Assembly (NCBI GenBank): GCA_963662155.1
Contig: OY759274.1
Coordinates: forward strand, 24,089,122-24,153,121
DNA: 64,000 nt
Direction: 5' to 3'
Source: Lamellibrachia columna
Lineage: Eukaryota > Annelida > Polychaeta > Sabellida > Siboglinidae
Shown here piece by piece: positions 6,131 through 58,769 of the stretch. The notes beneath the pieces were generated by a model. The model saw nothing but the letters and a program-made list of their open reading frames with translations. It did no database searches and had not been told where the DNA came from. Every line of letters starts with the position of its first letter. Position 1 is the stretch's first letter. A program made the position numbers and the translations under genes.

Positions 6131-6267
6131 CTGTGGCTCTAGTTTCTTGTTATTGGCCTCATCGTCGTCCATCTCGAAGTAGACTTCACTGCGAGTGATT
6201 GACATTGTTCCAGCAACGACCGCACCGGCTGCCACGAGCTTACATTGGACGGACAACGCAATAGGAC
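6131..6267 (-). CDS. NBEA: NBEA window exon 37 (start of PH-BEACH domain)
   Basis: 137 nt, phase 1 in and 0 out. Acceptor GTCTGCCAG|GTCCTA, donor CAG|GTCAGT. Encodes [20 protein letters not shown], then [17 protein letters not shown], the first strands of the PH-BEACH domain. The next exon (vertebrate counterpart contains LHGKWMFSEIRAVF) was looked for in 1-6130 on the minus strand and not found, so the intron exceeds 6.1 kb. Confidence 0.96.
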
Positions 6268-9200: not shown

Positions 9201-12200
9201 TTTAGCTTTGAGTGTCCTAAACAAGGCTTTTCTCTATTGTGGAATACGGCCCACGTTTGTCAAGCAATTCATTTGTTCAAAACATGTCTGAAAAGCGATT
9301 CTCACGAATATTTTAGCTGTGCGCACTCAGCTGTGGCAAAGTCTCACAAGATCCAATCAATATAGATCATTATGCATAGCGAGCATCTTTTGAACGTGCA
9401 CAGCAAACCAGCAGACGGAGATAAACATATGGGTTCATTTGCAGATCTTATGGATTTCTGTTATCAGTCTTACAGGTGTGAGCCACCGAGGGTTGGCACA
9501 TATGCTAAAAGAACATAAGTAAGTGAGTGACATAAACCAAACTAAACTGTATATAAATTATAATGTAAATTGGATGGTCACAACATTACGATCATCGCTA
9601 TTTGTTTTTATTATTAAGATATTACAGGACGTATTTAATATAAACAATGGATAAAATGACTAGAGTATACCACACGCCAACTATATTTAAAGGAGTCTGG
9701 AAAGGAGGTATTTGTGGGAAACTGGGAGTCTGGGACTAAGCAACACCCACCGTGTTCTAAGGCAGCCCTTAGTGTCGCCTCCGGGTGGGAGGAGCCATGG
9801 GGGTTCTTCACGAGGCGTCTCTTCCGGCGGGAGTCATCCTCCCAGCTGTCCAGCCTCCAAAACTCCTGCTTCCTGTCATCAAGGAAGACACAAGTTCAAG
9901 AAACTGCTAGAAAAATTCATTGGAAAGTTCAGAAAAAGAATGCATATAATCACCTGCAAATGGCCAAGGTGTGTGGCGCTTTGTGCTGGTCAGATTCGAG
10001 ATGTTTTTAGAGGCCTTTTGAGATCAATACTTTGAAAATGTTAGACCTTTATCTATGATAAATTCAAATAAAAATAATTTTCCAAACTTATTTTCTAAAT
10101 GAATGTAACAGAATACAGAATAAACTTGCACGCTGATAACAACGTTCCACTCAAACACCCTCTAGAAACATTTATTTTATTTTGTGATTAATCTGTATGT
10201 ATCATTTGATTGAAGAAGTATACTGCTCAGCGACACAAAGTACTTCTTGCATATAAAAAATACTAGGCCTAGTTTGGTGCAAACTTAAATTTAAGACTTT
10301 TCTGTAAAAAATTCCCACTTAAAGACCTTTTGAAGGACTTAAAAAGCAAGATCCAATTTTAGACTTTCTAAATTCTTATATAGCGCGGCATCCAGTCCTT
10401 AAGACTGCTCAAAGCGCTTTACATTTCAACCCCTGGCAGATATGTTCATTCAAATGCCATCTCGACTTCTCTGGGAAGCATTCAGCCATGCTGCAATTAC
10501 AATGTTAATAATAGTCGTTCACCAGTTACTCATTTATACAGGTCAGTGAACTGATGCAAACCATTCTACAAATCACCCCACTCACCCATTCTACAAATCA
10601 CCCCACTCACCCATTATACAAATCACCACACTCACCCATTCTACAAATTACCCCACTCACGCATTCTACAAATCACCCCACTCACCCATTCTGCGAGTCA
10701 CCCCAGGCGCCATGCTTATTCGCCATGATATTCAACACCTTGTCCCTCAGTTTCGATGCGATCACGTGATCTCTGCGACGAGCCGACTTGATCAAGTGAT
10801 CACACAGTTTCTCCTCTTCACGTCGATCCTGCATCGACTGGGCACACAGCGACTACGAGGGAGAAAATGCATCATTTTATACAATTGCTATAAAATAATC
10901 ACTTATTTCTTATCATATCAAACATGTTTGACCCCAGCCGCATTTATGGCCAAAAACTAGGACAACTTTTATCGGAAGAATTTTGCTTTCCGTCACTAGT
11001 ATCTGACATGGGAACAAATTATACCACTGGAAAACTGAATGAGTCCTCTTTCTGTATCATTTGATTCATGAGTGGATTTAATGACAGTTAACAAGAATCT
11101 AGCTTATAAAACATTGTTGATATGCAAATTTGGCTGGTTTTACTATACGCTGTGTAATAAATTTACATATGCATTCATCAATGCCTGAATTTTGAACAAA
11201 ATATCGATGGAAAGCTCTGTGATTCGTTTATCCGCCTAAAATGATGTCAACCATTTAAATTAGGGAGTGAGAATCGCAACGTGAAAAACGTGTTATCGGT
11301 CCCATATCTCTGAAAACGTTGGTCTTGTAGCCATTTTGTTGTATCTCTTCAATGTTTTAGTTTGTATTATTTCAAGTTTCCGTGTCAATATTTCAGCAAA
11401 ATGCCCAGACAGTATTACTGAATCTCGTAATTATACTAGTTCAGACAGTTAGAAAGGGTTTTTAGAGGTAACTATTCAGCAAATTGCACATGCTCACCTC
11501 AAACTCAGCATGTTTCTGTACATCATCTGCCCGCATCCGGTTGAGGATGAATTCTGCTTCATTCGCCACTCTCACAATGTGATCCCTTGTTGCATGGGAA
11601 AGTAGTCTGTGAAAAGGATAAACATTAAAATTGAGTAGTCTGTAAGTAGGCAAATATAGCATAACTTAGTAGTCTACTGGATACAAGGCACACGTTTTAG
11701 TAGCCTGACAAATAGACGAAAATGTTGGAATTTAGTAGTTTGGTAAATAGGCAAAGGTTTTATGTTTTAGTAGTCTGACAAATTGGATTTTTTATTTTAG
11801 TAGTCTGACAAATAGGCGAAGATTTTATATTTTAGTAATCTGGCAAATAGCCAACTATGTTGAATTTTAGTAGTCTAGAAAATAAGTAGATAAACAAAAT
11901 TTTTTTATTTTAATAGTTAAGTACGCAAAGGGATTTAAGTGTAGTATCCTGACAAATAAGCACACATGTTGGATCTTAACGGGCAAGAGGACAGAAACAG
12001 CTTTATAATTTGATCCTTTGACTAATGGTCACTGACCTGCCCTCGTTGACCAGTTCGATGAAGGCGAGTCCAGCGTGTTTCTGCAGAGAGTTCTGCCATT
12101 CCTGTGAGCAGAGCAACATGACGAGCTCTACGACCGATGTACTCTGCTTGAGTGTCACCAAACCTAGACAAGAAGGACACAGATAAGCTAGAAAGTTTAG

Positions 12201-15200
12201 TTTTGAAAAACGCGTAATAGGATGTGGTTTCACAACACTAAAGACTACGAGATTAAGAGGAGATCAAATATAAGTTTTTGACATATTGAACGATCCCAAT
12301 TCCGTATCTGGTTAGAGAATGGTTTTAGCCTTATTACTATGTACAATATTGATATGGACTTTTAAAGAAAAATGCATGTTATACACATAAAATTACAGAA
12401 GGATCACAATGGAAGCTGAGGTTCTATGCTACATACAGACTGCTCGGGGAAAGGAGCCATTATCTATCCTGAAACTTACATGTCAACAGACAACTCCTCC
12501 TTGTTAAGCTATGTCAGCTGCTAAGTTAACCAACGTTATAAACAATAAAATATCAACTTCCACATGTAGATCTCTTAAAATGTCACTAACTATCATTGAG
12601 TTTCAATTACAATATTTATAGATCCCTCATCAATAAAATATTTTGGTTGTCTCATTTCAAATTCATTTTGCGAAAATTCAAACCTACCTAGTATCCACTA
12701 TGACATGCTAGCTAGTTTGTGCAACTATCCAATTAGTTTTTGAAAATGGAAACACTAAAAACTCACAAATTTCACCCTTTGTTGAAATTTCACAACTCAC
12801 GCCCATGATCAGCCTTGACCCCATAAAGTGTTTACTGTTTTGGATATCCAGCATTATCCACTAATTTTGAACCTTACCAGATCTAACGACTAAAGTAAAT
12901 TCTTTCGATGATTTGAACAAAAATACATCCTTTTTAATTAAAAAGACTGCGGATATTACTTAAAGTGAAACCAAAGGCATTGTTTTGAACCTTTGCACCT
13001 ATACGAGTGCCTAAAACTAACCATTTGCAAATATAATGAAGAATATCACGCAAGTGGTTTACTGGGAATCTGTTCTAAAAGTGCAAAATTCTGGTCTAAT
13101 GTCAGTTTTCGTGTAGGCTGACATAATCATCAGTGTTTGCAATTTTTACCAATCAGCGGCGAGCAGTCCCTTAACCCCCCAATGCAGCTGTGATGTAGGC
13201 TGTATGGATTGCATGTATTTTTAACATGGTTGAGATGTGAAGTTACATTTTTATTTGCTTTTATGTTGGATTTACATGCAGCAAAAACTTTTACAATGTA
13301 AACACGATTCAGCGAGGTAGTTGTCGTTTTTTTCAATTTCGAATGGAAAAACAGAATGTAGTGAAGCAATTTCGGGCGGGCGGGCTGGTTTGACGCCCAC
13401 GCGATATGCTAGACTTTATATGGCCCATTTTGAAGAGTTTGTTTTGAAGTTGATATATTTTCATCAACTAATGGGTCAAGATCCTTCAAAACGACGACGA
13501 CGGAAAACATTAAAGCCTGAAGCGATATCGACAATCTTCCAGCATGTACCTCATCCAAAGACTTCGACACAATGCAAACACTCGATCAAGAGAACTGTAA
13601 AATCGGAACGCGAGAAGGTTAGCAAACAATGAATGAATGGACTATTTTGCCAAAAAAGTTGATTTTAGATGCAAACAGCACGTCAAAATTATTGGCAAGT
13701 ATGTGACTAAACTCGTCTACGTCTATGATCAGGCGTTTAAAGTTGGAGTTGTGGGAAACGTAGTCAGCGTTCTGAACAAATATGGCACTGCCCATGCAAA
13801 AAAGATTTTCGGTGTTCAACGAGGTATATTTAGTTAACCACTTGCACGATATTCTTGAATATAGTTGCAAATGGTTAGTTTTCAAGTACTCTTAGAGGTA
13901 CAAAGGCCCCAAAAATGCCTTTGGTTTCACTTTAAACTATTCACGCACTACATATTAGGACATAAACGAGCCGGATTCGCGATAGGCTAAATCAGTTGAG
14001 GATGCAGTTTTAACAACATTTAACAAGACTGCCATCCAGAGCAACATGCTCCAGATGGCTAGTTGACATGGACGCCATTGGCTTATGGAGAGTGCAACAA
14101 TTTTTCAACAGGTTCTATCTGGTCTACTTCAAAGCCAACATTTCCTTAAATCAGCCAGCAGATGTGTCAAATTAATCATAAATGAACTTAGGTTCTGCTT
14201 ACCGCCAATGAGCAACTCTTGTCCATGTGATCCTAGCAGCGTCTTCGACAGGAACGGTGCAAAGTCCACAAAGATCTCCCTGAGCAGCGGGGCGACCGAC
14301 CCGAGTGTCTTCTCCAGTCGCTCTGTCAGGTCCCCTTGTTCCTTCAGGAGGGGAAGGTTCTGGAGAGGCTCGGGAATTGTGCTCAGTTCGAGGTTCTCCG
14401 GGCGATGACGACCGTCACGTGTGGACGCACCGTCGGGCACAGAGATGGACGAGATCGCTGCATTGTTGACTGGCACGTCTTGCGGCCCGGTGGTGGCGCC
14501 ACCTGTCTCTGCGCCGTTCGTCATCTCTGTCTGTCCACCGGGGGCAGCTTCTGTCTTTGCTTCCTGGTTATTGTCTTCTCCATTCTCGTCTCCTTTGTTT
14601 TCTTTCGCAGTTTTGTTGTCTTCACTTTCAGTTTCGGTTTTTGATTCGTCCTTCTTTTCTTCTGCTGGTTTCTCTTCCTCCTTTTTCTCATCCCCTGGCT
14701 CACTGTCTCCGCTAGGAGAGTCCTCAGTCTTGGCATCCTCTTTGATGGCACTCTCTGTTTTAACGACCACTGTTGAAGTCTCGTCAGATTTCTCAGTTTT
14801 AGCATCTGTACCATCTGTACCATCGCCTTGTTCTGGCTTCTCTACATCTTTAGTTTCCCCTTCAGCTTTCTTTTCTTCCTCTTCAGGCTTCTTTTCCTCA
14901 TCTGCAACCTCCCCACTTTTATCTTCCTCTTTCACGTCTTCGGCCTTCTCCTCTTCATCTTCTTTAACTGTCTTCTCTGTGGTTTCCTCAGCAACTGACT
15001 CGTCCTTCTTATCATCTTTAGGCGCTGAATAAAGAACATTTCATAATCATAACTACAGATTAACAACAAACCTCAAAGTGGAGGGTGGAATGAGAAGAAG
15101 AAGACCGAGATTGAGATGGGAGGACTGCATGAAGAGAGACTTCGCAGGAGTTGGGAGGGGAGGGGAGAATGAGGGGGGGATGGGGGGGGATTGGAGATGT

Positions 15201-18200
15201 CAGTGAAATGGGATCAGTGACGGAAAAAGAAAAAAAAATTTATGACCGGTATCGATGCCAGCCTCACCCAGGACTACAGTGATAAAGAGAAGAGCAACAA
15301 CAAGACAGAAATCGTTACATGAACAAGCCCACATACAGAAATGTTTACTCACATACACAAATGTATACCCACATACACAAATGTATACAAATAGAATATG
15401 TCATGTTGCACATTTGCTAGTGCACCAGGCTCTATTGATAAGATTACTCTACAGATTTTGTAAACAAACTAAAAATTATGTGCACATTCTTTACTTACCT
15501 TTGTTTCATAATAATGACATTTAAGAAATTTGCACTGCCTCCGCCCCAAGACAAAAAGGCTAACAAAATAATAATAAAGAGAGACGAGGAGAATACACAA
15601 GTAGCAGAGAACAACTTAGAGATAAACAGGATGAGAGAAGGAAGATGATGGAATTATGAGAAGAGATCGGAATGAAAAGACACCCAAGGATGAAGGTAGT
15701 GGGGAGGATGATGGCAGTGAGGAGGATGAAGGCAGTGGGAAGGATGAAGGCAGTGGGGAGGATGAAGGCAGTGGGGAGGATGAAGGTAGTGGGGAGGATG
15801 AAGGCAGTGGGGAGGATGAAGGTAGTGGGGAGGATGAAGGCAGTGGGGAGGATGAAGGCAGTGGGGAGGATGATGGCATGAAGGCAGTGGGGAGGATGAA
15901 GGCAGTGGGGAGGATGAAGGTAGTGGGGAGGATGAAGGTAGTGGGGAGGATGAAGGTAGTGGGGAGGATGAAGGTAGTGGGGAGGATGAAGGTAGTGGGG
16001 AGGATGAAGGTAGTGGGGAGGATGATGGCAGTGAGGAGGATGAAGGCAGTGGGAAGGATGAAGGCAGTGGGGAGGATGAAGGTAGTGGGGAGGATGAAGG
16101 CAGTGGGGAGGATGAAGGCAGTGGGGAGGATGAAGGTAGTGGGGAGGATGAAGGCAGTGGGGAGGATGAAGGCAGTGGGGAGGATGATGGCATGAAGGCA
16201 GTGGGGAGGATGAAGGCAGTGGGGAGGATGAAGGTAGTGGGGAGGATGAAGGTAGTGGGGAGGATGAAGGTAGTGGGGAGGATGAAGGTAGTGGGGAGGA
16301 TGAAGGTAATGGGGAGGATGAAGGTAGTGGGGAGCAGGCTGTGATGGACAGGACACATAGAGAGAATGAGTGAGGAGAGATTAACAAAGAGAGCCTGGAG
16401 AACAGAAGACGGTGGTAGAAAAGGAAGAAGACCATCATTAAGATGGAAGGATAGTGTGAATAGAGGTCTGGAAATGGGTGTGTGGGAACCGCAGAGAATG
16501 GGAAAAAATGACAGAAGTTCCAGAGATATGGAGACAAGTCGTCGAGAGGGTGGAAAGGAATTTGTAACGTGGCCCCCACCCTGCATGGGATTAAGGAGAA
16601 GAAGAATAGTCTTAAACCCCCTACTGACCCTCCGTCTTTGCTGCCTCCACTGTAACATCAGGAGCATCCTCATCACTTCCACCTTTCTCGGGCGACTTTG
16701 TTTCACTCTCACCAGGCGGAGATGCTAACGTTTCATCTTTACTTTCAGTTTCACCTTCACTTGATGTGGTAGCTTGTGACTTAGTTTCACTTTCAATGGA
16801 CGGTGTGGCACTGCCGAGTGCTTTAGTTTCACTTTTGCTTCCCGAGACAGAAGCCTGCTTCTGGGCTTCCTTGCTTGCTGTCTCCGCTGTATCTGAAATA
16901 AAATTTAATAAAGCGAAGTTAATTTCATTAGAATTTTAAAAACATGGAGCCTAACATTTTCCATTCAAATCAGCATTTCTACCCTGTACTGAAGATCCAC
17001 ACTTTTTAAAATGCAATCATAATGAAACACCTGAAAGAGTAATTTCTATCAAAACCTCAGACTGATTTGTGTTTTTGAAACAATTAAAATGCTGAACCTG
17101 AAATTCCAAATCCAAGTGTCGTGAAGAGGATCACCCCTGAAAGTTATACATTTTGCAAAACTAGACACTAAAATACCAATTTTCTTCTGCATCAAATGTA
17201 TGGAATCTCTAACATTGGCATAACAGTGAAAGAGATATTTCCAGAAGACAAACATGTTCCCAGTGCATTTTACCTAACATGGTAGCTGGCACAACTGAAA
17301 TGCATTCTATTAAACGTATGGGTTGGTACAACCATAAAGTATTTTACTAAACATGTATGCTGGCACCACTGTAATGCATTCTGCTAAACATATGGGTTAT
17401 TATAACCATAACTGTAATCTACTTAACATGTAGGCTGGCAAAACATTATCGTACTTAACATGTACACTGGCACAACAGTAATGCGTTCTACTTAAAATAT
17501 AAGCTGGCACAACAGTAATGCATTGTACTTAAAATATAAGCTGGCACAACAGTAATGCATTGTACTTAAAATATAAGCTGGCACAACAGTAATGCATTGT
17601 ACTTAAGACATCAGCTGGCACAACAGTAATGCACTGTACTTAAGATATAGGCATACACAACTGTAATGCATGTGTGTTTAACATGTAAGCTGGCACAACA
17701 GTGATTCATTCTGCTTAGCACATCATCGTTCTACTTAACACATGTAGGTTAGTACAGCCACAGTGCTTTCTACTAAACATGTAAAACTGGATCAATCATA
17801 CAGTATTCTACTTGACATTAAATAAAAACTGAGTCAGAAATCCATAACAACAAACAGGTAGAAACAGCCAACATAAAGTGTACACACGCATTCAAACATG
17901 TGTACTTCAGTGAATCTGATGTATACTTATGCTAGAGGTACGTACATTGCAAAACTTTTGAATCGGCCCAACAACGGATGCACCGGACAAATCAACCAGT
18001 GACTGGAGTTTTGTGGAGTTGCGGACCAGTGCACATTGCACAACTTATCAGATTTAAGTAAAATAAACACACGATTCGCAACAAAAGTCTAGCAACGTAC
18101 GCCAAGCATAACATGCATCAATGTGTCTATGACTACTGTCAACAAGACGGACACCTTGCAGATGGAAGAAACAGGAGTCTGCATGAGAAACGTAGCACTA

Positions 18201-21200: not shown

Positions 21201-24200
21201 TGCCATACCTTAGAAGACGGTTGTGCCCCCTTGATCAGGGCCTGTATTGGGTCAATCTCTGCATCCACCCCTTTGATGGAGGGTGACCTTGAGAGTGGGG
21301 TGGAGGGCGTGCGAGGGGGGTATCGGTGCTGACACTCGAGACAGTTCCTCACCGCACAGGTGCATGCTGAAAGACACGAGGTGTCAGTAACAGTCAAGTA
21401 AACGGTCACAGCAATAATTGTTCAGTCGATCTTTAATTTCATAGTATCAATTCTGTTTTGGCAGGTCATAGCACCCAATACAAATTCATGGGTCAGTTGC
21501 AATATTACCCATATCACCAACACATTAATCCCATCCTAACCACTAATGAGATAATAACAATATGAAAACTTCTACGGTGCCTACATCCTTGGAAATCCGA
21601 ACTCAGAGGTACATAAAAACAAAAGGGTTACGCAATCTTAAAATCGATTTACAATGCAACATTTGTCAACAAATTATGCATCACAACATTAACCCCTTCC
21701 CCTGCTGTTGCTATATTAACCCTCTGCTCACCAAGTCTGCGGCACTGTCTCAGTATGCCTCCAATGGACATGTTCATTAACCCTTTACCCTGTCGTTGCT
21801 ATATTAACCGTACTCACGAAATCTGAGGCACATGTGCATTAACCCCTTCCCCTGTCATTGCTACATTAACCTTGTGCTCACTGATTCTGAGGATAGTCTC
21901 AGTATCCTGCCACTGGACATGTTCATTAAACCCTTCCCCTGTCATTGCAACATTAACCCTGTGCTCACCAAGTCTCAGGCATTGTCTCAGTATCCCTCCA
22001 CTGGACATGTTCTTCTCCTGCTCAAGTTCAGCGAAGTTGAGGGAGCTGGCAAACACGAGGATGTCTGTCATGTTCATGAGACGCTGCAGGAACGAGACGG
22101 CCTGCTCCACAGGAAGTCCCTGGCTCGGCTCCAACATGTCTATCTCCCCCTGTGAAGAGCAACAATCATGTGTCAATATCATATATCCCACATAAAAAAA
22201 AATGTGATTCATCAATACCTATTTGGGCGGCCATGAAAATAGTTATAGTTTATACTACGTAACATGACTTCACAATAAAAGTTTTTCCGCAACTATCGAT
22301 GGAAATGTGCTGTGATTGGCCCGTTGCCACAACTGAGTTTTGGTGAGTTGCGGACGAGCATACTTTGCCCGATTCACATCACAGACCAACACACATTACA
22401 AAACATGTGTTGCCAAAATTAAATTTTCAAATCAGTTCAACAACTGTTGCGACGGTTAAATCAACAAGCACCATGAGTTTAGTTGAGCTGCTGACCAGCA
22501 TACATTGCATGGCTGGTCAGTCTTAAGTCAAATAAACCCAAGACTCGCAATAAAGGTTTAGCAATGTATGTCTGGTGTGACCAAAGATTGTGATTATGGA
22601 GTAATACATGAGTCTTACAGTGGGAGACGTGGCAGCAGCCAATAGTGGCAGGAGACCTCCGCATGCTGTCACCAGGTTGTCAGACAGCTGAGAGATCATG
22701 TGAGTCACATTCACCACAAACACGTGGTTCTCCGTCGCATTCACAAAGTCAAGGACTGTCTTTGTCGTGTGCCTGTAATCAGAGACAACGACGATATCTT
22801 ACATAGCTTTGCTCCATTCTCAGAGCTAGTTCTGGCAGCAGCTAATTCAGCGTTCATCCTTCACACAATTAGTGCAATGCAAGTTAGAGTTTGTGGGTCC
22901 ATGACAGATTACACATTTACCCCGTGTGTGTGATCTTTTACTTCCCCTGGCATGGACATTAAGTAGATGGGACCAACGGCTTTTAGTGTCTCTTCCGAAA
23001 GACACAGGAAAAGTGGGGTGAACGAAATTGCCCAAGTTTCTAAACGGCAGCAGGCGGATTTGAACCCTGGTTCCCTGAACTGACAGCTCGATGCAAGGGT
23101 TAGAAACTATAAAGGTGTTTGCCACTTACGTCTTCCACACTTGTACGTCCTGCTCGAGTGAGAAGAGCAGATCAGACAACAACATCTGGTGCAGATATGA
23201 CCAGCGGAATTCTGGGATACGGAAGGGCGGGGCTCGCGGCCCAGGGCTGAAGAGATGTCTGCTTGAGCTCTGGTGACTGGGGTTGGAAGGTTCGCGGGGG
23301 CGTGCGCCCTCCGCTGCCTCACTGGTATCGGTAGACTCACTCCTCATCCCCGTTATCTCCGCTTCTTTCGCCTCAGCAGCCGCCTCTCCCCAAGTTTGGG
23401 GCTCAGATGGGCTAGCGACCTTTCCCCTGTCTCCCACGTCTAGAAAAGGGAAATAAGGATTCAGCATCTAACAATATGAATGAACAAAAGATTTATATAT
23501 TTATCGAGAAATGTTAATGTGATAAGCAAAACAGTCTGTTTGATACGAAAATGTTTATACATAACATTGTATAATACAATGAAATTATTGTACATATTTA
23601 TATTAATTATTACTTAATTTGTACATATTTGTAATATTTTTTAAGCTGTGATTTACAGTATCTCATAACTCTTTCGGGTGCCTGCTGTATATATACATAT
23701 ATATTGTATTTATGTTTTGTATTTTAATGCACATGTGCATGGAGACAGGAAATAAAATATTTACTTACTTACTTCCTTACCTACTAACTCCCTTACTTAC
23801 CTAATCCCACCTCTCCGTTCGCCTGCTGCCTCTCCACAGGTGCGGCAGCAATATCTTTCGATTCTCCATCACCGACTTCGGATTTCACTGTTTTGCCACC
23901 AGGTGGAGTTGTTTTCTTGGAGAGCATCGGTGTCGAGCTGTCGTTCGTGATGCCGCTCTTGAGTTCCTCAATGAAGCTGACGATGGACGGATCGAAGCCA
24001 AGAATCTCGTACGCACTCGGACTTCCCTTCTCCTTCACGCCTTCAGTCTCCGTCGTCCCATCTCCGTCTTTCATCTCGACGTCAATGTCGCCCACATCTG
24101 TCACATCACCCTTTTCCATCGACACACCCTCACCACTAGGGGTGGCCGCTGGAGTTGCATCGCCACCAGCAGTGCCCTCTAGTTTTTTTTCATTGTGTTG

Positions 24201-36200: not shown

Positions 36201-39200
36201 AGAGGATGTAGTCGAACAGGTGCTTGAGTAGGGCGCCACCTATTGGCAAGTTCACGAGGTACTTCGTGAGTTTCAGGAAGCAGTCGAGAACGTCTTCAGT
36301 CACATGTTGCCGTGACGACTGGTAGCAGAAAATAAGATTGCAGTTGGATTTTCTGTGTTTTTCAGTTATCTGACTCAGAGTAGGGGCAGGCCAACAGATG
36401 AAAATATCTTTTAACATAAATGCTGTGTTAAATCTTTCATTGCTACAAAAAATCAGTGTACATAAAAAATTATGTTCTCTATTTGTGATTGTCTTTATAA
36501 AATTGATTTCCTTTTAAAATTAATATCCTTTCTAAGATACGAACATGGCTTGAAAACCTTAACCAAAAAATGGCAACCATTACATGACAGCCATCATGTG
36601 ATGGCTGTCATGTGACTGACATCACATGACATGGTGGATGAGAGAGGACAACAAACCTTCTCGAGGAGATAGCTGATGACGAGGAAGCCTTTGTTTTGCA
36701 CCAGTTGTTGTTGTATGTTGACTGAACTCTCAAGTAGGTCACATAACAGACCCATCAGTGTCGAGCTGAAACACCGTCAAATACAACACAATACAAACTT
36801 CTATTGCGCTAGAATCTTTCGGAAACCCCAGTTTAGACAGTTTCAAGTTGATGTAACAATTCCAGTCGTAAACAGTTGGATTGGTATGCTGAGGAGATAT
36901 GGAGGATAAAAACGAGTTTACTGTAGCTGGGGTGGCTGTTATATGTCCGTCTTGAATTGAGTAGTTTCAGTAGAAGTGTTTAAGATAAATTAACCATTTC
37001 TTCAAAGACTGTAGTTGAAATACTGTATAATATTCCAGATTAATAAAATTTGGGGTTTTTCTTTTTGCCTACATGTAACACGCGTTCATACATTTTTATA
37101 AAAAAAAAACTTAATTAGGTAGTTTCCTGATTGTTATTGATAACAGAAATGTCGATAGATATGTGTATCATGCTTGAAATGTGACGATTTTCACTGGCGT
37201 TTTATGTATTGTTGACAAAACATACCAGCCATTTGTAAAATTGACATGTCCCCTTAATTTGCCACCACAACTGCCCCAACTACCTTAAACAGGTGGTTTT
37301 TAGTCAATGACAAAATGTTACTATATTTCCTGCTGACTTAACACTAACAGGGAGTGAGTTCCACAGAATTGGTACAGCAACTGAGGAAGCTCCAATTCCA
37401 ACGTTTGTCTTAAAACTAGGAACGAAAAATGGATTTGAACTAGATGATCGAAACTGTCTGGGCTGTCTTGCAGGTGTGAGTAGCAGATGTATAAATGCTG
37501 GTTGCTAGGGTGAAAGTGCTTGATAGGTAATTGTGCAGGTATTAAAAAGAATACAATATCAAACAGGGAGGCAATGCAATGATTTAAGAAGTGGTACTGA
37601 GTGAGATAAACTAGGAGACTGGGTAACTATCCTTGCCAAACAATTTTGCACTCATTGAAGTTTTTCAAGATGTCCCTGAAAGCTGTACTGTGAAAAAGTT
37701 AATTGTAATGACACGAAGCACACATCTAACTACCAGCAAGACATTTTGTGTCACAGCCAGCCAGCCAGCAAAACCAGCCAACCAGCCAGCCAGCCAGCAA
37801 AACCAGCCAACCAGCCAGCCAGCCAGACTATAGGTGTCAATATTACTGCTTTCGGGCAGGAATTATTGTTTTCCACGGCTTTCCAGGTTTTTTGATGAAA
37901 TGTCCCTTTTTTGTTTTTAAAAAACTTTTCAATTTGTTGCACACAAGGCCACCTGTTATTTGCATGGTCTCTAGTGATTTCACATCATCTTGTGCGTACA
38001 TTCACCACAAACAAGAACAACAAATCAACCTTTTGAACTATGCAACTGGAATGACTGCACCCAAAATATTGTGAGCTCTATTACAACCATTACAGAGAAA
38101 TATATATCCCATCAGACTTACCAGATGGTGTAGTCAATGACCTCAGACGAGTTATTGCCAGCCTCCTGCACAAAGTCCAGTTGACCAAAGAGTGGGAAGA
38201 GCACCTGCAATATATGAGACGACCCCTTGTCAGTGTCAATGTGTCATATATGAGACGACCCCTTGTCAGTGTCAATGCGCATATAAAAAACTCACATGGC
38301 AAAAAGTATATTTCAGGAGTTTTTCTTCTCTACAGTTAGTGATTCCAAGACGGGTTACATATTTACCCGAGTGGGATCTTTTACTTCCCCTGGCATAGAC
38401 ACCAGATAGAAGGGACCAACGGCTTTTAGTGGCTCTTCCGAAAGACACGGGCAAAGTGGGGTGAACGAAATTGTCCAAGTTTCAAAGTGGAAGCAGGTGG
38501 ATTCGAACCCAGGTCCATTCTACTGCGCCCAGTATCCTTCTCAAAAAGTTTACTTTTCCTCTCTATGTGAACACAGAGTTTCACAACCCACAACAACAAA
38601 ATCAGAAAGAAAAATCATCGAAATCCAATAATAAGCCCACCTGCTTTAAAGCATGTTTTTCAAGACACCAAGTAACCTGCAACCCCAAATGCACAACCCC
38701 AAATACACAACCCCAAACCCCAATGAGTCTGACCCCCATTGTCTGGTACAGTCACCTGTATTCCACCGATGGAGTGCAGCGTGCTGTGAATGGAATGTGT
38801 GACCACTGCCTTGACGTCCTGCAGCATGAGTGCGTGCGGCGTGTGCACGAAGTACGACGGGTTTCCCTTGGGGGACGACTCAAGACACAGCTGACTGTCA
38901 CATGCCACGGGTGTGTACATGAACACAATCGAGTTAGTCAACTTGCTGTCGTACAACACCTGGAACCAGGACACGAGATATCAGCATGCTAGTTGATACC
39001 AGACTCTGGGACAATCTGACTCAAGTATGTTGAGAAACCTTTCAGGGTCTATTGCTATGCTCTACAGAGCTTTCGTCACCTTCTTGGTCACTTCTACTTA
39101 ACACATGATCGAACGACAAAGAGATCTCTATGTACCAAAAGCATGGACCAAAATCTTCCATAACTCTATAGCAGTTACTAGTGCAAAAATCTGGGACACT

Positions 39201-42200
39201 CTGAGCCTAGCACTACAAAATTGTAACTCCATTTATGCTTTTAAAACATGTTATCTGAAGAATATCTTTGATTAAACAAACTTGACACACAAGACTATGA
39301 ACACTTTAACATGACTATTTTAGTTAACTTATTGATATTACGTATTTTATCCATATCACTTCTCAAATTGCTGAGCTAAACATTTTTACTTAACTTATTT
39401 GAATCCATTTTTAAACTATCTTTACTGCATCTTAACATATACTCTCATTTGTAATTCTTTAATCATAAGCAGTACTATATTTACTTTACTTATATGATAA
39501 ACTCATGACCCTGGGGAACACAAAATATATATTTATAATGTTTATCAAGAATAAAAAACGTTTATTATTATTATTATTCAGCTTCAGCCTGAACTGTTCT
39601 CTGGTGTCATGTGACCATGTGGTATCCCCTATCTCTGTTTGTAGTTGGATGCTCCGCCATTCATTGATTTTCTGACCCAGAAATTGTTCTCTTTGTCCAA
39701 CACTGTCGTATCTCTGGCTGTGACGTTAAGGCCCTTGTTGACATTGCGACAAAGTTCCGTGGGTATAACAATACTCTGAGGTATATTAACTAACTTAGAT
39801 ATGTAGTAAGATATTAACTTACTATGATACGTAGTAAGATATTAACTTACTTTGATATGTAGTAAGATAATACCTTATGTAGTAAGATATTAACTTACTT
39901 TGATATGTAGTAAGATATTAACTTACTTTGATATGTAGTAAGATATTAACTTACTTTGATGTAGTAAGGTATTTGTTGTTTTTAACTGACATTTTTTCTA
40001 TTAAACTACAAATTTGAGTAGTGACATTCTGCAGCATAAAAGTCAAGATTTCTTCGAAGAGCTTCATTCTGCCTATGTGAATGAACAACGTTGTCAAACT
40101 GCTTTGCATTGTACAAGTCATACCTTCTTTATGGCTGGGTTCATTAGAATGTTGCTCTCTGACTCGAACCGGAACTGACTCTGAAATCAAAGCAATAAGT
40201 CCAATCAAGAAACCAGTATACAAACAACAATTAATAATCATATTTTTTCAGTCAAACCTCACTAATGAGACCACTTGTAGGACTATGCTAAGTTGGTCTT
40301 AAATGTGAGGTAGTTTTAATATTGAATCATAGTGGAAATTGTCCTAGGCATCAGTGGGAATTGTTCTAGGTGTCAGTGGGATAAATTGCAACTACACGTC
40401 TTCTTTTTCATCAATGCATGGTTCTGTGTTATTTTAACATTGTGCATTTAAAATGTTGGTGTTTCAATAAATAACACACAACATGTAATTAATTTAAGTG
40501 GACACACCCTTTATTAATTAATATGATTCATGTACATTGTGCAAACATATTATTCCTAGTAGGTTGAAATCATGCGGGACATTTATGGGCACAATTATTG
40601 TATCACAATATATATAAATAAACAATAACAATGCAAAACATCTATCACAGCCAGAATTAATATTAATATTTTTCGCAATTGCATTAATGTTATCACCTAT
40701 ATTTGATCAACAATATTTTTTTAAGGTCCCCTTTGTTCAATGTGACACAGTCCTAGACTGAAGGCCTCACAGAACAAGTAGACATGTGACATGACATATA
40801 CTTTGTAGCCAGGCCCTAGACTGAAGGCCTCACTGACCAAGTCGACATATAACACATACCTTGCAGTCAGGCCCTACACTGAAAGCCTCACTGAACAAAT
40901 AGACATATGACACATACTTTGTAGCCAGGCCCTAGACTGTAGATGGCAGCCACCTGCTGAGCAGTGAAGGCCTCACTGAAGAGGTAGACTGAAGACATTT
41001 GCCCACAGAACATGGAGTCTTCGTCCATGTCTTGTTTGCAGCCCAAGTAGCATTTGTCAAACACCTGGTGACATCAACAACAGTGATTATAATAATGTCA
41101 TGAAAACAACATGGAGATGGGCAGGTGACACAGTAGGTGACACAGCAGGTGACACAGCAGGAATGTAAGACAACAGACGGACCAACAGAACAACTGAATG
41201 ACAACCAAGCCTGAAGAGGCAGACGGAAGAGACGATGGCGTAATGGCTTTAATAACTACTAAAAAATTTGAAACCCACAAGTAATCAAAAGTAATCAAAA
41301 GAATGTGGTTAGTTCACCAATTGAGAAATGTCAATACTAGAGAAAGGAAAACAGTGAAGTCATTGGTCGAAGTGGAGAGGTAGATTAAGGTAGAGAAATA
41401 GTGTAAAGAGACTAGAAAAGAGAGGCAGGGCTAGCAGGTGTGAGAAATTAGGAGGAAGCAAGACAGGTGGAGATAGTTGAATCTGCCTCGATCCGTGTGT
41501 GGTGAATTAATATATTACAGTCGAGCTTCGTTATAACGCGGTGGTCGGGATCCACAACTTCGGACTGCGCTGTACGCGAGACGCATTAGATGTTCTCATA
41601 TCTGCCACCAGGGAGCTACTAAAGAACAACGATCGCCGCCCGCTGCACCAAGCCCATGAACGCTGTTGAAGTCCTCTGTGCTTGCAGCACTGTCTCATAT
41701 GCCAACATTCAGTTTATGGAACTTATTAAACTTATTATACTAGCATCAATGTGTATTATTTTTAAATGTCACACCCTGTTGATTCTTGAACTGAATAAAA
41801 CACATGTACGTATATCGTTATGGAATAGATCTACTACGATGATGATGTACTGGACCAATAGGCCTACGAATCGAAAATAATAACCTGGATCTGAGCAGCC
41901 GAAAACGTATATGATTTGACAAACGTAGTATGTAAGCTGATAACACAGAAAACGACAATAGGTAGAATTAATAATTCTACTTTCAACCGATCTCAACCAA
42001 AGCATAAATTTATTACGCACCACTTAACATTGATTCATCGGTTCATATGCGGATGACGAATTCGTATTTTCGCGCACCGGTAGAGCATTGGGTTAGGAAT
42101 TTGGCATGTTGGTTTCGCGTCGCGAAAACGATTAAATTTACGATGTAGTGGAAGCATGTAATTTCACCTAAGTGTTATGTTGGTATTGAATACTAAATGC

Positions 42201-45200
42201 ATTTAAAACTGCTGATCTGATTCTTACGCGAGGTGTATTTGTAAAAATCTCGATTGCAACTTACAAACTGTCGAAGCGAAGCCAGCGACAGCGATTGATG
42301 TCGGCGACAGCGCAAAACAAACAACACGTTGATACTCATTCATTGACATTGTATATCTAATTTATCTTGAGAATTGTCAAAGCAATTCTAAGTAGGTTTA
42401 AGCCCATTTGGTATTTTCTCCAGGCGGCAGAAAATCGTTATATCCGAATCCGTGTAATAACGGGGCGCATAATAACGAGGCGCGACTGTACTATGATCCA
42501 GCAAGTGGATGTATGTTTGTATGTATGTTTGTATGTGTGTTTGTATGTTATGCTACTCCTCCTAGATGCTTTGCATATGTCAGGAGTAAACAAAACGTAC
42601 AAGACAAGGTTGGACCTCTAGAAGACAGTGCTGGAAATATAATATCACAGGGGTTTTTAATGGCGGAAGACCTAAATGGTTACTTCAGTTCAGTGTTTAC
42701 CAAAGAAGATATTAGTTCATTACCAGTTGCTGGATAACAAATCACCGGGAGTGGATGGGATTCCTCCAAAATTACTAATGGAAACAGTAGATCAAATCAG
42801 TATACCACTTGCAAGAGTATTCAACTTGTCATTAAAAGAGGGAGTTGTTCCGTTTGAATGGAAAGAAGCAAACATCATACCATTATTTAAAAAGGGTTCG
42901 AGAAATAAGTAAGAGAATTACAGACCAGTGAGTTTAACGTCAGTGATTTGTAAATTATTAGATAGGTTAATTAAAGACCATATGGTGGACTTCCTCGTTA
43001 AGCATAAATTATTAAATTCATCTCAACATGGATTCCTTAAAGCGAGGTCATGCTTAACAAATATGTTATGTTTTTTGGAAGAAATCACTAAGTGGATAGA
43101 CGTGGGATCGCCAGTAGATATTATCTACTTAGATTTTCAGAAAGCTTTTGACAAAGTGCCACATCAAAGATTACTACTTAAATTAAAATCCCATGGTATC
43201 GGGGATAGCATAACTGACTGGATAGAACAATGACTGACTGACAGAAGACAACGAGTTGTAGTAGATGGAGAAGTTTCAAATTGGAAATCGGTTTTGAGTG
43301 GAGTACCTCAAGGATCAGTATTAGGACCTATATTATTCTTAATAAACAACATTTACAAAACGATCTAGACAGATTAGTGAAATGGTCTGAGAAATGGCAG
43401 ATGCTGTTCAATTTTGGGAAATGTAAATGCCTACATACAGGACATGGGAACTTGAATGTAAACTATAAAATGGGAGATACTGTTCTGGGTACTACTGTAA
43501 AAGAAAAGGACTTAGGAGTTACAATAAGCGCTGATATGAAAGTTTCAGAGCAGTGTGGTATTGCAGCTTCAAAGGGTAATCAAATTCTTGGATTGATTAG
43601 AAGAAACATAACATACAAGGGAAAAAAGTTAATTATACCTCTTTAAAAAGCAATAGTTAGACCTCATTTAGAATACTGTATACAAGCATGGAGAGCTAGA
43701 AAGAAATAGATATGCTTGAAAGCATACAAAGGAGAGCAACTAAAATTATTCCAGAACTTATAGACCTTAGTTTTGAAGAACGCCTGAAAGAATGTAGTTT
43801 AACTACTCTTGAGACAAGGAGGTTAAGAGATCATATTAAAGTTTTTAAGATATTGAATGGGTATGAAAATATTGATAGAAATATGTTTTTCGCACCCAAG
43901 AAGGATAGCAGAACTAGAGGACATGAGGAAAAATTAGTAAAAGATCAATGTAGATTGGACATCAGGAAGCACTCGTTCTCACAGAGGACAATAAATGAAT
44001 GGAACAAATTGTCTACAGATTGTGTAACTGCTAGCAGCGTGAATATGTTTAAAAACAAGGTTGACACATATCTCAGGACACAAATGTTGTACCCTCGATA
44101 AGCCAATGGCTTCCTTGTCCACTTGCCATCTGGGCCTTTGGCTTGGATGGCAAATCTTGTTAAATCTTGTTAAATCTGTTAAATCTCAGGTACCAAACTT
44201 TCAGCGACCCCCATGGTCAGGTCGTCAGTTTTATTTTTTAAATACACAACCCCCTTATTGCCTTTTCTAGGAACAATCAAATGACCCTTTGTAGTTATTA
44301 TGTACAATTGTCTGCAATGCTACATGAACAATTACTTATAATTGTTGACAAAGTCATGTGTCTTTTGTTTAATTGTCCCAAGTTACGTAACACAAGGGCA
44401 ACGCGTCGACAGACGTTACTATAACTGCCCGTATTATGCCACAATTTTTAGTTACAATAACCAACATGACATACTGTGATATATATAGTTAGCAAGCCTA
44501 CTGTGTCCTAGACCGTATTTACAGAAAGGTAACTTACATCACTAGTGCTGACGAGCCAGGCCATTTCTGTGTGTGACACTAACTGACCGTCCACGTAGCA
44601 GTTGAGTTCGTTCTTGCTCCATCGATTGTACAAATGGACGACACTGACCATGTACCACTGAGAACAGAAAACACTTCATTTGCGCCATAATGCTCATCAC
44701 ATGCTCGTACAAGTGGGGTACGGTGACATAATGCTCATCACATGCTCGTACAAGTGGGGTACAGTGACACAATGCTGGACAATCAACTTTCGCTCAGTCC
44801 CAGTTGCAACAGGGTCACTCGGTGGTATAAATGAGTACCTTGCAATAGACAGTGATGGAATTATGAGAACAAAACAGCTTTTGTGCAACAATTGCAGCAT
44901 GGCTGGATGCTTCCAAAGTTCAACGCAAAGTTTAAATGGTGTTTGCATGAAAAGATCTGCAAAGTGTAACACTTTGCTTTATACACAGTGTACACATGGA
45001 CCACATCCACACCCACACATGCACCACACCCACACCACACATGCACCTCATCCATACTACACACGCACCCCACCCACTACACATGCACCACATCTACACC
45101 ACACACACACACACCACACCATGCACACACCACATCCACACTGTGTATCACAAAACAGTATTTGTTTTTTATTGTGAGAACATTTCAATGTTTTTAAAAT

Positions 45201-48200
45201 GCATCCGTTCTAAATATTCTTTAACCAACAACTTGTACTAGCAATACAGCTTAGTTTCAGCAAACTACATGGCAAGATTAGTTCCAGTAACATGGTCATA
45301 TACCATGAGAGAAACTATTACAAACTCATAAGCAGAACCAACTTTACCTTCCTTGGTACAAAGTCATACTTGACACAATGCTGGAATCCTTTGCCTTTCA
45401 CCTTCATGGCAGTGATGACCAGGGCGTTGCCAAGGAAATGACCATAGTAACCAATTCCCTTGCTTGTCTGGAAACTAAAATGACATGGTGGTTATAACAG
45501 GCACTAAATCTACTCTAATACGACGACCACTACGCTTGCAAGTTTTAGTTATTTTATTGATGTGCTCCTGCAGTGATGATGAAACAATATTTCAGGAATT
45601 TACTAAGTTTAAAGAAATCATAGAGTAAAATTTAAATATTTGTTTCATTAGAGAACTGTAAACAGTTGTGTACTCGGAAGCGAGATAGAAACCATTTGTT
45701 TACTTGGAAGTGAGAGACCTTATACAGGTCTATGCAGAAACGAGAAACCTACTGTAGACCTACTTTGAAGAATTGGTGTTCTTGCGACATACCTACCGTT
45801 GGTCTACTAGATGTAGACCTACTTTGAAGTGATAGAATTGGTGTTCTTGCAAGTGACATACCTACCGTTGGTCTACTAGATGTAGACCTACTTTGAAGTG
45901 ATAGAATTGGTGTTCTTGCGACATACCTACCGTTGGTCTACTAGATGTAGACCTACTTTGAAGAGATAGAATAGGTGTTCTTGCGACATACCTACCGTTG
46001 GTCTACTAGATGTAGACCTACTTTGAAGTGATAGAATTGGTGTTCTTGCGACATACCTACCGTTGGTCTACTAGATGTAGACCTACTTTGAAGTGATAGA
46101 ATTGGTGTTCTTGCAAGTGACATACCTACCGTTGGTCTACTAGATGTATGTTTTGAAGTGACAGTGTAGGCATACATTGAATTGAGGGACTTAATTTGAC
46201 CTAACTTAGGACTCACCAGTAGAGAAATGGTTTCTCTCGTTCAATGTTAGTGCCAGTCACCGGGTCAAGGCGGAACCAGCAGTGGAATGTCCAGCCACTT
46301 TGGTACGGCCATCGAGCAATCGGAGGCAGATGAATTCCCTGTAAGAACAGGCAGAGATACATACAAAGGTTCACCCTTGCCACCGGGAAAATACAATTTT
46401 GCCCCCCTACACCCACACCCTTTGTTAGTCTGTTGTTATTATGGTGTGCTATATGAATCGGTAAAACACACCATTAAGTTCTTACTGAGCAATACCATTT
46501 TACATTAAACAAATGCAGATTTCACTGATCTGAAATGACCTGCCATGAAAGTTTAATGTCGACATACAATGCAATGCGAGAAATTTGCATTTTGCGTTTC
46601 AACTGCAACAACTGCATGAATCCATGTTAATAATAGTATGTAGACTGGTTATCAGCACAAAGAACCTATAATCTTTAGATTCTTAACTAGAGAAAACAAT
46701 TATGTAGCTGAATGGGTGTTAGGAAATAGGGAATGTACCAAACTCACCGCTCCTTTCTTGCCGGGGAAGCTAAAGAACTCATTCGCCCCATGTTTCTGAG
46801 GCATCAAACGAAGCACTTGAAGCAACTTCACTGAATGGTGTGGCTAAACAAGATGAAATAACACATTAATGGTGTGGCTAAACAAGATGAAATAACACAT
46901 TAATGGTGTGGCTAAACAAGATGAAATAACACATTCAAGCAATGTAAACCTAACATTAAAAAAATATCTTAATTGTAATTATCTTGACAGTCTATATTGT
47001 ACGTTTTTTTTTTATTTTACTTACATTTGCCCACCCCCCCATTACACCACATCATTTATTATGAGATGATAACAAAGATGTAAATAAATAATAATTATTA
47101 AGGGTGGCATGTAAATATTGATTTTGGTAACATAAATATTTGAAATGCCTGTTTGTTAGAATTCCTGTATTGTCACTGTATCACAATTCAGCATGTTAGC
47201 AAAGTTTCATTACCAAAAGTTGATTGAATTACAGCAATTTTGATGTCATAATGAATAATATAGTTAAATTCTACATAATTATATCAAATAATTTCATTAT
47301 ATAGCAGTGACAGTTTTTAATTCAACAACTTGTTCTAGATTTGATATCTATAGCACAACATTTAATTATAGAGTACCGTTGTTTTTAATTCAATAACATG
47401 TTCTAGAATTGACATAATAATGTTATATTAACCCCACAACTGCTTCTGTTTGGTCTACTTGTTAGCAGCATAGATTTAGAGTATGTTGCTTGCATTTGTG
47501 TAATATTTACCCATTTTCCATTCTGCCCCTTGAGTAGGCCAATCAGCAGTCTTAGTTCCTTCACTGTGATACTGTAGCTCGCCAGTACACATAGCATGTC
47601 AATGAACAAGTCTGAAACACAGCACACAGCTAGTGTTGGCAATCGGTTTCATTTTCATAATCGATCATCAGTTTTACATTCATAATCGATCACAGGTTCT
47701 ATTTTCATAATCGATCATCGGTTTGATTTTCATAATCAATCACCGGTCTGATTAAAAAATCAATCGTCAGTTTAATTTTCATAATGGATCATCGGTTTGA
47801 TTTTCATAATCAATCGTCGGTTTGATTTTCATAATTGATCGTCAGTTTGAATTTCATAACAGAATATTGGTGTGATTTTCAAAATCGACCACTGGTTTGA
47901 TTTTCAAAATCGATTGTCGGTTTGATTTTCATAATCGATCATCAGTTTGATTTTCATACTCAATACAAACCGATTGATGATTGATTATATAATCAGTTTG
48001 TGGGCAGCCATTGTAGGAAAGAATTCATTTACATTTTCGACAGCGCACTGACTTTTTCAACAGAATAACAGAAAGGGGAAGCCACAGAATAGCCAATCAC
48101 AGAAGTCGTCTCTCTTTCCATTGCCCAGAGAAGTCATGGAACGGAAACAATATTCAGCACAAATTTGTGATAAATTAATTGATTGAATGCATGAACCAAT

Positions 48201-51200
48201 CAATCATTAAAAAATCTATTAATTGAAACAACACTATTGATACAATGTATCTACTGGTGGGTTATGATAGTAGCTATTTTATCTACCAGAAGGTTTATAA
48301 CAAAGGTTATTGTTAATGTGCTATAAAATTAGCTCTGAATATGTCCCTCTTAGAATGTCATAAAAGTAGCTAAACAGGTCCTTGTCAGAATGTCATAAAA
48401 GTAGCTCTAAATATGTCCCACTTAGAATGTATTAAAAGTAAGTTCCTCTTAGAACGTTCTAAAAGTAGCTTAATATGTCCCCAAAAGAGTGTCCTAAAAG
48501 TAGCTAAATATGTACATGTTAGAATGTCATAGAAGTAACTAAATATATCCCAGTGGTAGACTGTCCTAAAAGTAGCTAAATCATGTCATGTCATGTCAGA
48601 ATATCATAAAAGCAGCTACATGGGTCCCTGTTAGAATGTTACAAAGTAGCAGTATATATACATACATGCTAATACATCATAAATGTAGCTATATAATTAC
48701 CTGCTAACATGTCATCGGCGCTCCTCAGTTGAGCCAGTGCCCGTTCGATCAGGCCGATTTCAGTACAGGCCTGAAGATTGCGGGTGCTCTTGCGCAGGAT
48801 TGCTGTGAAGTGACTCCATAGTTCACCCTGGTGAACAAAACAACAACTACATAAAAATGTCTGCTATTTCTCAAATGGTGAAACACTTAACAGGGCTTAA
48901 AATTCGCTTGAAAATCTGAACTTTCAAAATTAGTGGCCAGCAATTAAATTTAGGGGCCAATTGGCCAGGATAGCAGGTTTCATCTAGTAAAATTATTAAA
49001 TACTATGGTTGCGCGTAACCCAAGCCTGTGTATATGGCCTAGAGATCAATGCAATCAGGGAAAAACAAGAGAAAGCTTGTGGAATTAATTATGGGAGTGA
49101 AAAAAAGTAAAGAATGGAGGAGCTGAGGGGGGAGCTGAGGGAGGGAGCTGAGGGGGGAGCTGAGGGGGGAGCTGAGGGGGGAGCTGAGGGGGGAGCTGAG
49201 GGGGGAGCTGAGGGAGGGAGCTGAGGGAGGGAGCTGAGGGGGGAGCTGAGGGAGGGAGCTGAGGGGGGAGCTGAGGGGGGAGCTGAGGGGGGAGCTGAGG
49301 GGGGAGCTGAGGGGGGAGCTGAGGGGGGAGCTTAGTGTGAAATAGAGTTTTAGGAAGAAGCTGGTGAGGAGTTAGATTTGGTGGTAGTGGAGAACGTCAC
49401 CAAGTGATGCAGGTAGCGGATACAGTAGTGAAATAAGAACAGTGACAGAAGAAGGAAAACAAAAATATGTGTATATATAATATATTGACCTCCTACATCT
49501 TTTTTTATTTTTATTAATTCATATCATTAGAATTTGGAATGTGCCAAATACCATGACATGTATTTCCCAGTTTAATAGCTAAATAACAATATTTTTTAGC
49601 ATAATACTGACCATGTACTATTTCTTCTGAAGTTCAGAATTATGTGAACACTGTAATCATACCGCCAGAAAATTACTTGTATAAACTAGCAGAGAGATTC
49701 TGATAAGAATTAGAATTCGGCAAAAGAATCAGAGATAATTTACAAAAAATGCCGGATTATTGAGCATGTGAAAACCTGTCCCAATACCATGCCTTGGGGC
49801 ATGGCTATACCCACTGTTGGGCACCGGCAGTTGTGTTTAACTACATTCTCACATCAATTAAAAATTATAAAATGTACGTTCACAAAGTCATGCAATATTA
49901 GTTATATATCATAATAAAAAAAATATGTGCAGTGATGTTGGTTTGTAATGTAATTCAAACCACGTCACAAAAACATTCGACTTCCCCATTTGACTTCACA
50001 ACACGTGTCACAAGCTAGATACTACAATTATTTTAATGTTTCATGAAACAATTATTAAGTGCGGTGCTGTGGTAATTATCTTAGTTCTGTGTCGAATACA
50101 AGTACGCATAACAACGAAAATATGGGGAATAAGACGAAAACGCAAGTGCCATAATCGGTCACCGCAGTCGTGGAGCACATTCTGAAAGTTTGGCAATGAT
50201 GTTTGACAAGATACATTCCAGAGCACCTTATATCTAAATCTATTCATGATTAAAGATAATGAGCGTACATCTAAAGAAGTGCAGGTGTGATATGTGATAG
50301 GTAGAACTTGTAAAAAAGACGCTCATTTCGACGTGCACGTACAGCGGTGACACCTAGTGGTGCAAAACGAACGATCGAATGGCACAGCCAAATTGAGGGC
50401 TCCTCCGTCCAGAAGCTGGTAGCGCTACGATTTTACGTTGGCTGTTAACGTCTTATGCAGCTAAATGTTTCATTTGAATGATTTGCGTAACCTATGCATG
50501 TTGCAACATTGGAGGTCCAACTTGAACCATTTTTGAAGTAATACAACTTACAAAATGCATTCGCCAACTGGCGCCCACTATTAAAAAAAACACTCGCCAC
50601 GACAATATTTGGGCCCTATTGGCAAGCCACAGCTCACAAATTTAAGCCCTGCTTAAATATGCAGCATGCACCATCATACTGTGTTTTTATGACATTTGAT
50701 TGTCCTAACGACCAAAGGAGATTTATATGCAGTATTTCCTTTAATATTTACTAACTTATTCATCCAAAAATCTTTTCAACAAGTTGATTTGTGATCTTTT
50801 AAAAGGTCTCTGAATTTGTAGTTCAGCCATAAAAATGTATAGTACTTGTCTACTGGCTAATAAAGTAACATTGTATTATCGAAAAAAAAATTTAAAAGTG
50901 TGTTAGCTTGGATTAAACTGTCACTGTGTAACTAACTATGCGCTTATTAAATAAAATGATATTAGTGTTTAATATTCACAAAATACAATAATTAATTTTT
51001 TTAATAATGGTTTCTGGAGAAACATACAAATTTAGCTTTAGAGCATCACACAATTTTTTTTAATATTATATAAACCCAGACTCAGTTTGCCAGATATTTT
51101 CCCATATAACTACAGTTACAGTTGAGTAGGCCTACTACAAAGAAGGACAATTTCTGTTGTATCGGAAAACAGAGAAAAGGAGATACTGAAAATGTTAAAA

Positions 51201-56348: not shown

Positions 56349-56502
56349 AGGACGTCTACGGGGCACAGACCGCAGTTGATTGACGTCTACGGGGCACAGA
56401 CCGCAGTTGATTGACGTCTACCGGGCACAGACCACAGTTGATTGAAGTTGATTGACGTCTACAGGGCACTGACCACAGTTGATTGACGTGTATGGGGCAC
56501 AG
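56349..56502. repeat. 31-bp tandem repeat, about 5 copies
   Basis: Units GGGGCACAGACCGCAGTTGA followed by TTGACGTCTAC. It ends exactly at the CAGGGTTG tip of the next element. Confidence 0.92.
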
Positions 56503-56505
56503 ACC

Positions 56506-57212: not shown

Positions 57213-57433
57213 GCAAATTTGCAGGCACTACATCTGAAATACTTCCGGAAGTCTAACTGCAGTCTGACCCCTTTAGAGACACAGTGACTGGTCTGGGGGA
57301 GTTTTATGATAACTACCAAGATAATGGCCCAGTCCCCTAAGTACACTTCAGTGACACTATACATGGCACTATGCAGCAGTTAGTGTCTGCAAGTGATTTC
57401 TCATTGCTCTCTCCGTCTGTCTCCTATCTCCTA

Positions 57434-57660
57434 CTGCAATGCTTGTCAAGTTCTCCTGGGTCAAATCATGCTCAAATTGAAATATGACCAATACGGTGCT
57501 CTACTGCAATGCTTGTCAAGTTCTCCTGGGTCAGATCATGCTCAAATTGAAATATGACCAATACGGTGCTCTACTGCAATGCTTGTCCAGTTCTCCTGGG
57601 TCAGATCATGCTCAAATTGAAATATGACCAATACGGTGCTCAACTGCAATGCTTGCCCAG
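57434..57660. repeat. ~79-bp tandem repeat, 3 copies
   Basis: CTACTGCAATGCTTGTCAAG, then TTCTCCTGGGTCAGATCATG and AAATATGACCAATACGGTGC, nearly identical copies. Confidence 0.93.
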
Positions 57661-58680: not shown

Positions 58681-58769
58681 GCAGAGGCAGGGAGTGGATA
58701 ATCCATGGATAGGTGTGAAAACGCCTTTATTATCGCTCAGCTATTCCATGTTCTTTTTGTGTATCACAC

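Follow-up and report, generated by a model that had tools for sequence, protein, structure and literature searches.

How does the junction between an exon and an intron come to lie inside a tandem repeat, and what does it mean when one gene holds nine such cases? The question is raised by a neurobeachin gene in a stretch of 64,000 nucleotides (hereafter the window), where nine of the 73 junctions examined sit inside short tandem repeats whose units carry the junction sequence too. A first-pass annotation of this DNA had singled out these nine places, suggesting either that junction DNA is prone to slippage or break repair, or that redundant splice sites are tolerated or useful.

Gene Model and Affinities

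Codon-biased segments on the minus strand, together with a Pfam match to DUF4704 (E 1.2e-23), pointed to a neurobeachin gene. Its exons were modelled by spliced protein-to-DNA alignment to a profile of 12 homologs, giving 37 exons that total 6306 bp, with introns of 39018 bp in all (table 1), numbered exactly as in the first-pass annotation. The model excludes the protein start and the BEACH/WD40 end. A 27-bp 38th segment, at the end of the alignment, was removed, which makes the donor of exon 37 (6131-6267), the last exon modelled, less certain. Exon 1 ends at 51329; its acceptor end was placed by homology, and by eye the acceptor is better set at about 51434, with the exon starting near 51433. 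Since the model set that end by homology, the exon 1 acceptor was excluded, and the 73 junctions comprise 37 donors and 36 acceptors. No coding exon was recognised upstream of exon 1 within the window, and sequence searches of the structure library returned no match. Exon 30 (16629-16892) codes for a Ser/Glu-rich stretch, and exon 31 (14203-15024) for a long acidic Glu/Lys-rich one, with which comparable stretches of the mollusc and nemertean homologs line up.

For the variable middle region, the top match is Capitella teleta (E 1.2e-9; 17 matches among 3808 candidates). In a tree of 20 sequences and 917 columns, which contains no deuterostome, the window gene and that of Capitella form a pair (SH-like 0.978, ultrafast bootstrap 95). 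Their identity in this tree is 70.4%, so the relationship is not a close one, and the annelids do not form one group, Owenia pairing with Lingula. A first tree, built without Capitella, places the window gene weakly near Dimorphilus and one further sequence, with Lineus as the closest homolog (68.4% identity over shared columns). Deuterostomes are absent from the organism-named matches among the best 120 of 3660 and the best 120 of 4179, where only candidates sharing most words were scored. Given this indirect evidence from the matches listed, and the pairing with Capitella, we rejected amphioxus as a likely source of the gene. As far as sequence comparison can tell, this is probably a neurobeachin gene from an annelid.

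The window holds other repeats as well. Very large arrays lie at 30467-31842 (43 bp x 32), 24628-25635 (20 bp x 50.5), 15687-16334 (18 bp x 35) and 58758-59513 (29 bp x 26), and upstream of exon 1 there are further tandem arrays at 56351-56505 (31-bp units) and 57431-57655 (70-bp units, 98% matches). Intron 7 holds broken pieces of a reverse transcriptase on the plus strand (42402-44101; PF00078, E 3.3e-13 for one piece), which we would guess to be of the non-LTR type.

Nine Junctions within Tandem Arrays

When the units are laid out at each array's period, the junction and its flanking exon bases appear at all nine places named in the first-pass annotation. The same nine took ranks 1 to 9 when all 73 junctions were put through one uniform test, which matched 12 exon and 16 intron bases to the adjoining intron and then replaced the exon bases by 400 pieces drawn at random from other exons. 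Seven junctions gave 0 of 400, the exon 25 donor 2 and the exon 2 donor 13; the tenth-ranked junction, the exon 5 acceptor, gave 36. By this test the weakest of the nine is thus the exon 2 donor (0.03), which with 15 exon bases gave 3 of 2000. An earlier swap test, covering 14 of the 73 junctions with settings fitted to each and 2000 draws, had returned 0 to 12 at the nine and 655 to 2000 at five others (the donors of exons 5 and 22 and the acceptors of exons 3, 7 and 11).

Tandem Repeats Finder (TRF) arrays enter the exon by at least 4 bases at seven of the nine, namely the acceptors of exons 4, 15 and 21 and the donors of exons 8, 14, 25 and 34. The arrays at the exon 2 donor and the exon 33 acceptor are degenerate, and the program missed their junction overlap. 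Unit lengths agree with those first given (25, 34, about 34, about 35, 53, 58, 66 and 87 bp, plus a 79-bp duplication), and each unit holds from 6 up to 46-49 exon bases. A reading of the lengths and sequences of each array finds the units unrelated across loci, upholding the earlier view that a process, and not one repeat family, is at work.

Table 1. The modelled neurobeachin gene and the nine junction arrays, in window positions; swap tests are given as counts among 2000 draws (settings fitted per junction) and 400 draws (uniform test).
Feature	Position	Strand	Unit and copies	Exon bases per unit	Exon position	Swap test (of 2000)	Uniform test (of 400)
Neurobeachin gene (37 coding exons modelled; spliced alignment, DUF4704, homologs)	6131-51454	-					
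Exon 2 donor array	48323-48715	-	about 35 bp, degenerate	about 15	48701-48827	3	13
Exon 4 acceptor array	46834-46935	-	34 bp x 3.0	10	46748-46843	0	0
Exon 8 donor array	40752-40939	-	58 bp x 3.2	22	40918-41064	1	0
Exon 14 donor array	33783-34256	-	53 bp x 9.1	12	34245-34413	1	0
Exon 15 acceptor array	32212-33349	-	66 bp x 17.2	46-49	32118-32260	1	0
Exon 21 acceptor	25915-26094	-	79-bp duplication, nested shorter copies	about 30	25752-25944	0	0
Exon 25 donor array	21830-22012	-	87 bp x 2.1, degenerate further copies below	44	21969-22149	1	2
Exon 33 acceptor array	11601-11884	-	about 34 bp, degenerate	6	11498-11606	12	0
Exon 34 donor array	10561-10705	-	25 bp x 5.8	20	10686-10852	1	0

Self-matches, TRF positions or a first alignment suggested further arrays at the donors of exons 5 and 22 and the acceptors of exons 3, 7, 8 and 11. 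None of these stood out in the uniform test, and all except the exon 8 acceptor also failed the earlier test of 2000 draws. After the exon 22 donor (23761-23804) come 16-bp copies of gtaagtaaggg, and a span of 32 bp contains several strong GT sites; exon bases in this unit fail both swap tests (683 of 2000 and 92 of 400). Beside the exon 11 acceptor, a 36-bp duplication (38210-38285) ends 6 bp before the exon.

Are Junctions Favored Sites?

The gene contains 48 TRF arrays, three of which are wholly exonic and were removed before counting; the arrays make up 23% of intron bases. The overlap of arrays with junctions, which the first-pass annotation had proposed to compare with shifted positions, proves lower than chance in this gene. 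When the exon map is rotated against the arrays, seven junctions lie wholly inside TRF arrays against 14.1 expected (sd 3.3), and only 2% of 1215 overlapping rotations reach as few as seven. The deficit arises because so large a share of intron bases lies in arrays while exons exclude them. Array coverage is 12% within 10 bp of exons versus 26% beyond 400 bp, and we take this, with the rotation deficit, to reflect selection that keeps arrays out of exons.

An array expands from a seed unit through insertion, and the fitting null is therefore how often a seed would straddle a junction. We applied it to the 45 arrays that are not wholly exonic, after shortening the introns by the 7754 bp that arrays had added. 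The arrays at exons 2 and 33, whose junction overlap was shown by the swap tests and not by TRF, count among the 45. Random seeds then give an expectation of 2.07 junctions (smallest period) or 2.95 (best period), so the nine observed are 3 to 4 times as many; P, uncorrected for the choice of this gene, is 0.003 or 0.022 for seven and 0.0001 or 0.0015 for nine. When finished arrays are placed instead, likewise uncorrected, 3.67 are expected if the overlap is capped at 50 exon bases (P 0.07 for the seven TRF-spanned cases, 0.009 for nine) and 2.39 if it is capped at 30 (P 0.009 and 0.0005). Because the gene was picked for its striking look, the excess over the seed expectation is suggestive only. 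Six non-exonic arrays have a smallest period of at least 50 bp, and four of these, as was noticed afterwards, sit at junctions.

One explanation of this excess is that junction DNA is a true hot spot, where duplication occurs at several times the rate of the intron interior. Candidate causes would be the step in base composition, short repeats inside AG|GTRAGT, a nucleosome edge, or R-loops or splicing-linked breaks. We hold this to be possible, on the unlikely side. Besides the seed count, base composition speaks in its favor: GC is 0.53 in exons versus 0.36 in introns outside arrays, and 0.47-0.52 in six of the seven TRF-spanned junction arrays (0.32 in the seventh) versus a median of 0.37 in other arrays. 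Against it stand the selection of a single striking gene, the placements of finished arrays, the fall of array coverage toward exons and the deficit in the rotation. Furthermore, 24% of deep-intron positions score at least 20 in a self-match, as compared with nine of the 73 junctions (a different nine). Thus the first-pass suggestion that junctions are prone to duplication keeps the support of the seed count and loses that of the overlap test.

The Decoy Copies

At the nine junctions we counted 42 decoys with matching context. Scored with a generic splice-site matrix, 31 of them fall no more than 1.5 bits below the real site. If used, 37 of the 42 would shift the frame (18) or keep it but bring in a stop (19), while five would leave an open frame, exon 15 accounting for three of these. 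With the four decoys of exon 22 included, the totals for decoys, near-equal scores, frame shifts, stops and open copies become 46, 32, 22, 19 and 5. Since most decoys would shift the frame or add a stop, an intact protein is expected only through the exon-side copy; in the best path of the gene model, homolog residue numbers continue across each of the nine junctions with that copy and without insertion.

Might redundant splice sites have been kept for a benefit, serving as spares or giving rise to protein variants? What speaks for this is exon 15, where 16 of 17 copies carry the AG and the three copies closest to the exon keep an open frame; their use would lengthen the protein by 22, 44 or 66 residues, in steps of 22. 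Its other 13 of 16 decoys run into a stop, however, of the 26 decoys at the remaining eight junctions just two keep an open frame, and the exon 2 array keeps the GT in two of nine copies. Nor are the motifs better conserved. With the exon-side copy as reference, in ten arrays (the nine plus the exon 22 donor), the splice core matches at 78.3% of 526 bases and the remainder at 80.8% of 2720; array by array the core is the higher in eight of ten, most of all at exon 34, with exons 15 and 2 reversed. This comparison mixes exon constraint with flanking DNA, and hence it was repeated with each decoy set against the consensus of the decoys, in seven of the nine arrays (the exon 8 donor and exon 21 acceptor have too few copies). 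By this measure the core is no less variable than other parts of the unit (summed 1.064 vs 1.046, P 0.54), lying under the rest at exons 34, 4, 25 and 33 and above it at exons 14, 15 and 2. The decoy motifs show no sign of upkeep. The useful redundancy entertained in the first-pass annotation is therefore very improbable, given also the many decoys that would break the protein.

Least probable of all, by a little, is that a faulty gene model or repeat assembly errors produced the pattern. The model does rest on homology, the copy numbers come from one assembly, and the copies at exon 4 are 100% identical. But the exon edges agree with homology and frame, copies in the other six TRF arrays match at 81-94%, unlike assembly stutter, and the uniform test separates the nine from the remaining 64 junctions.

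Origin of the Arrays

The account we lean toward, and think reasonably likely, is that seeds straddling junctions by chance were duplicated and that the arrays persisted as splicing would use the copy touching the exon. A short seed sequence would happen to span an exon–intron junction, and slippage or unequal exchange would presumably have turned it into an ordinary minisatellite. Such arrays may be near-neutral, provided that splicing still takes the copy beside the exon, and a preference for junction DNA may act on top. In support of this account, arrays are so common here that some must straddle junctions, and the exon parts of the units encode residues shared with homologs, which makes the exon their likely source. 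Decoys that are not upheld and would mostly break the protein if used argue for tolerated by-products over useful redundancy. Counting against it are the three- to fourfold excess, which chance alone poorly explains if the gene is typical, the four of six long-period arrays that sit at junctions, and the higher core match to the exon-side copy in eight of ten arrays, though the pooled match is lower. The intron-side position of every array is expected under any explanation.

Comparison with Known Systems

Annelid genes with large intronic minisatellite arrays have been described before. In earthworm metallothionein genes such arrays occupy intron 1, and another locus carries extra copies of exon 4 that are missing from the transcript; transcripts could be aligned to the repeats, which the authors ascribe to chance (PMC12783039). 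The neurobeachin gene shares the large arrays and seems to differ in its junction arrays, of which the passages of that account drawn on here describe none. In potato RdRp, an intron was gained by tandem genomic duplication (PMC4974935). As there, tandem duplication can carry splice signals into new copies; unlike there, the neurobeachin copies stay within the existing intron and the gene model shows no new intron or exon. Across the nine junctions the modelled homolog residues run on with no inserted exon, and so no new spliced intron from duplicated junctions is found among them.

The closest likeness is to the amphioxus mirages, which the first-pass annotation had mentioned for an Adh gene and which do exist in print. 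In the parts of the two reports drawn on here, they are described in Adh3, the globins BflGb6 and BflGb9 (one each), PGBD5 (two) and TnC, with differences in allele length, somatic instability and normal splicing (PMC3087553, PMC3902484); the last is suggested by Adh3 data and globin RT-PCR (PMC3087553). As in those passages, the present arrays are minisatellite-like copies of an exon–intron boundary on the donor or acceptor side, with unit lengths that differ (there among genes) and splice signals in many copies, not all. The tandem unit holds the real boundary with both exon and intron bases, which is what marks a mirage. The printed cases, so far as those passages go, have a cephalochordate host, which is no part of the definition, and our gene pairs instead with Capitella (in a tree without deuterostomes). 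In the open-licence literature searched, we recognised no mirage-type case outside amphioxus.

What sets this locus apart from the amphioxus cases as described there is that nine such arrays occur in one gene of a probable annelid, known here from one sequence. They form a dense and real set of a known structure, probably in a new phylum. More speculatively, and rather doubtfully, junctions could be mutational hot spots that give birth to minisatellites in lancelets and annelids alike, with the decoys as a constant reserve from which new exons, introns and splice variants could arise. With this gene, the range of mirages would come to include spiralians. Should junction arrays be as dense as this in a protostome, they would provide nine natural tests of how the exon-side site is chosen, in many of which decoys match it in predicted strength, as well as a first set of loci for asking whether junctions seed minisatellites and new introns; mirages would then be no lancelet oddity.
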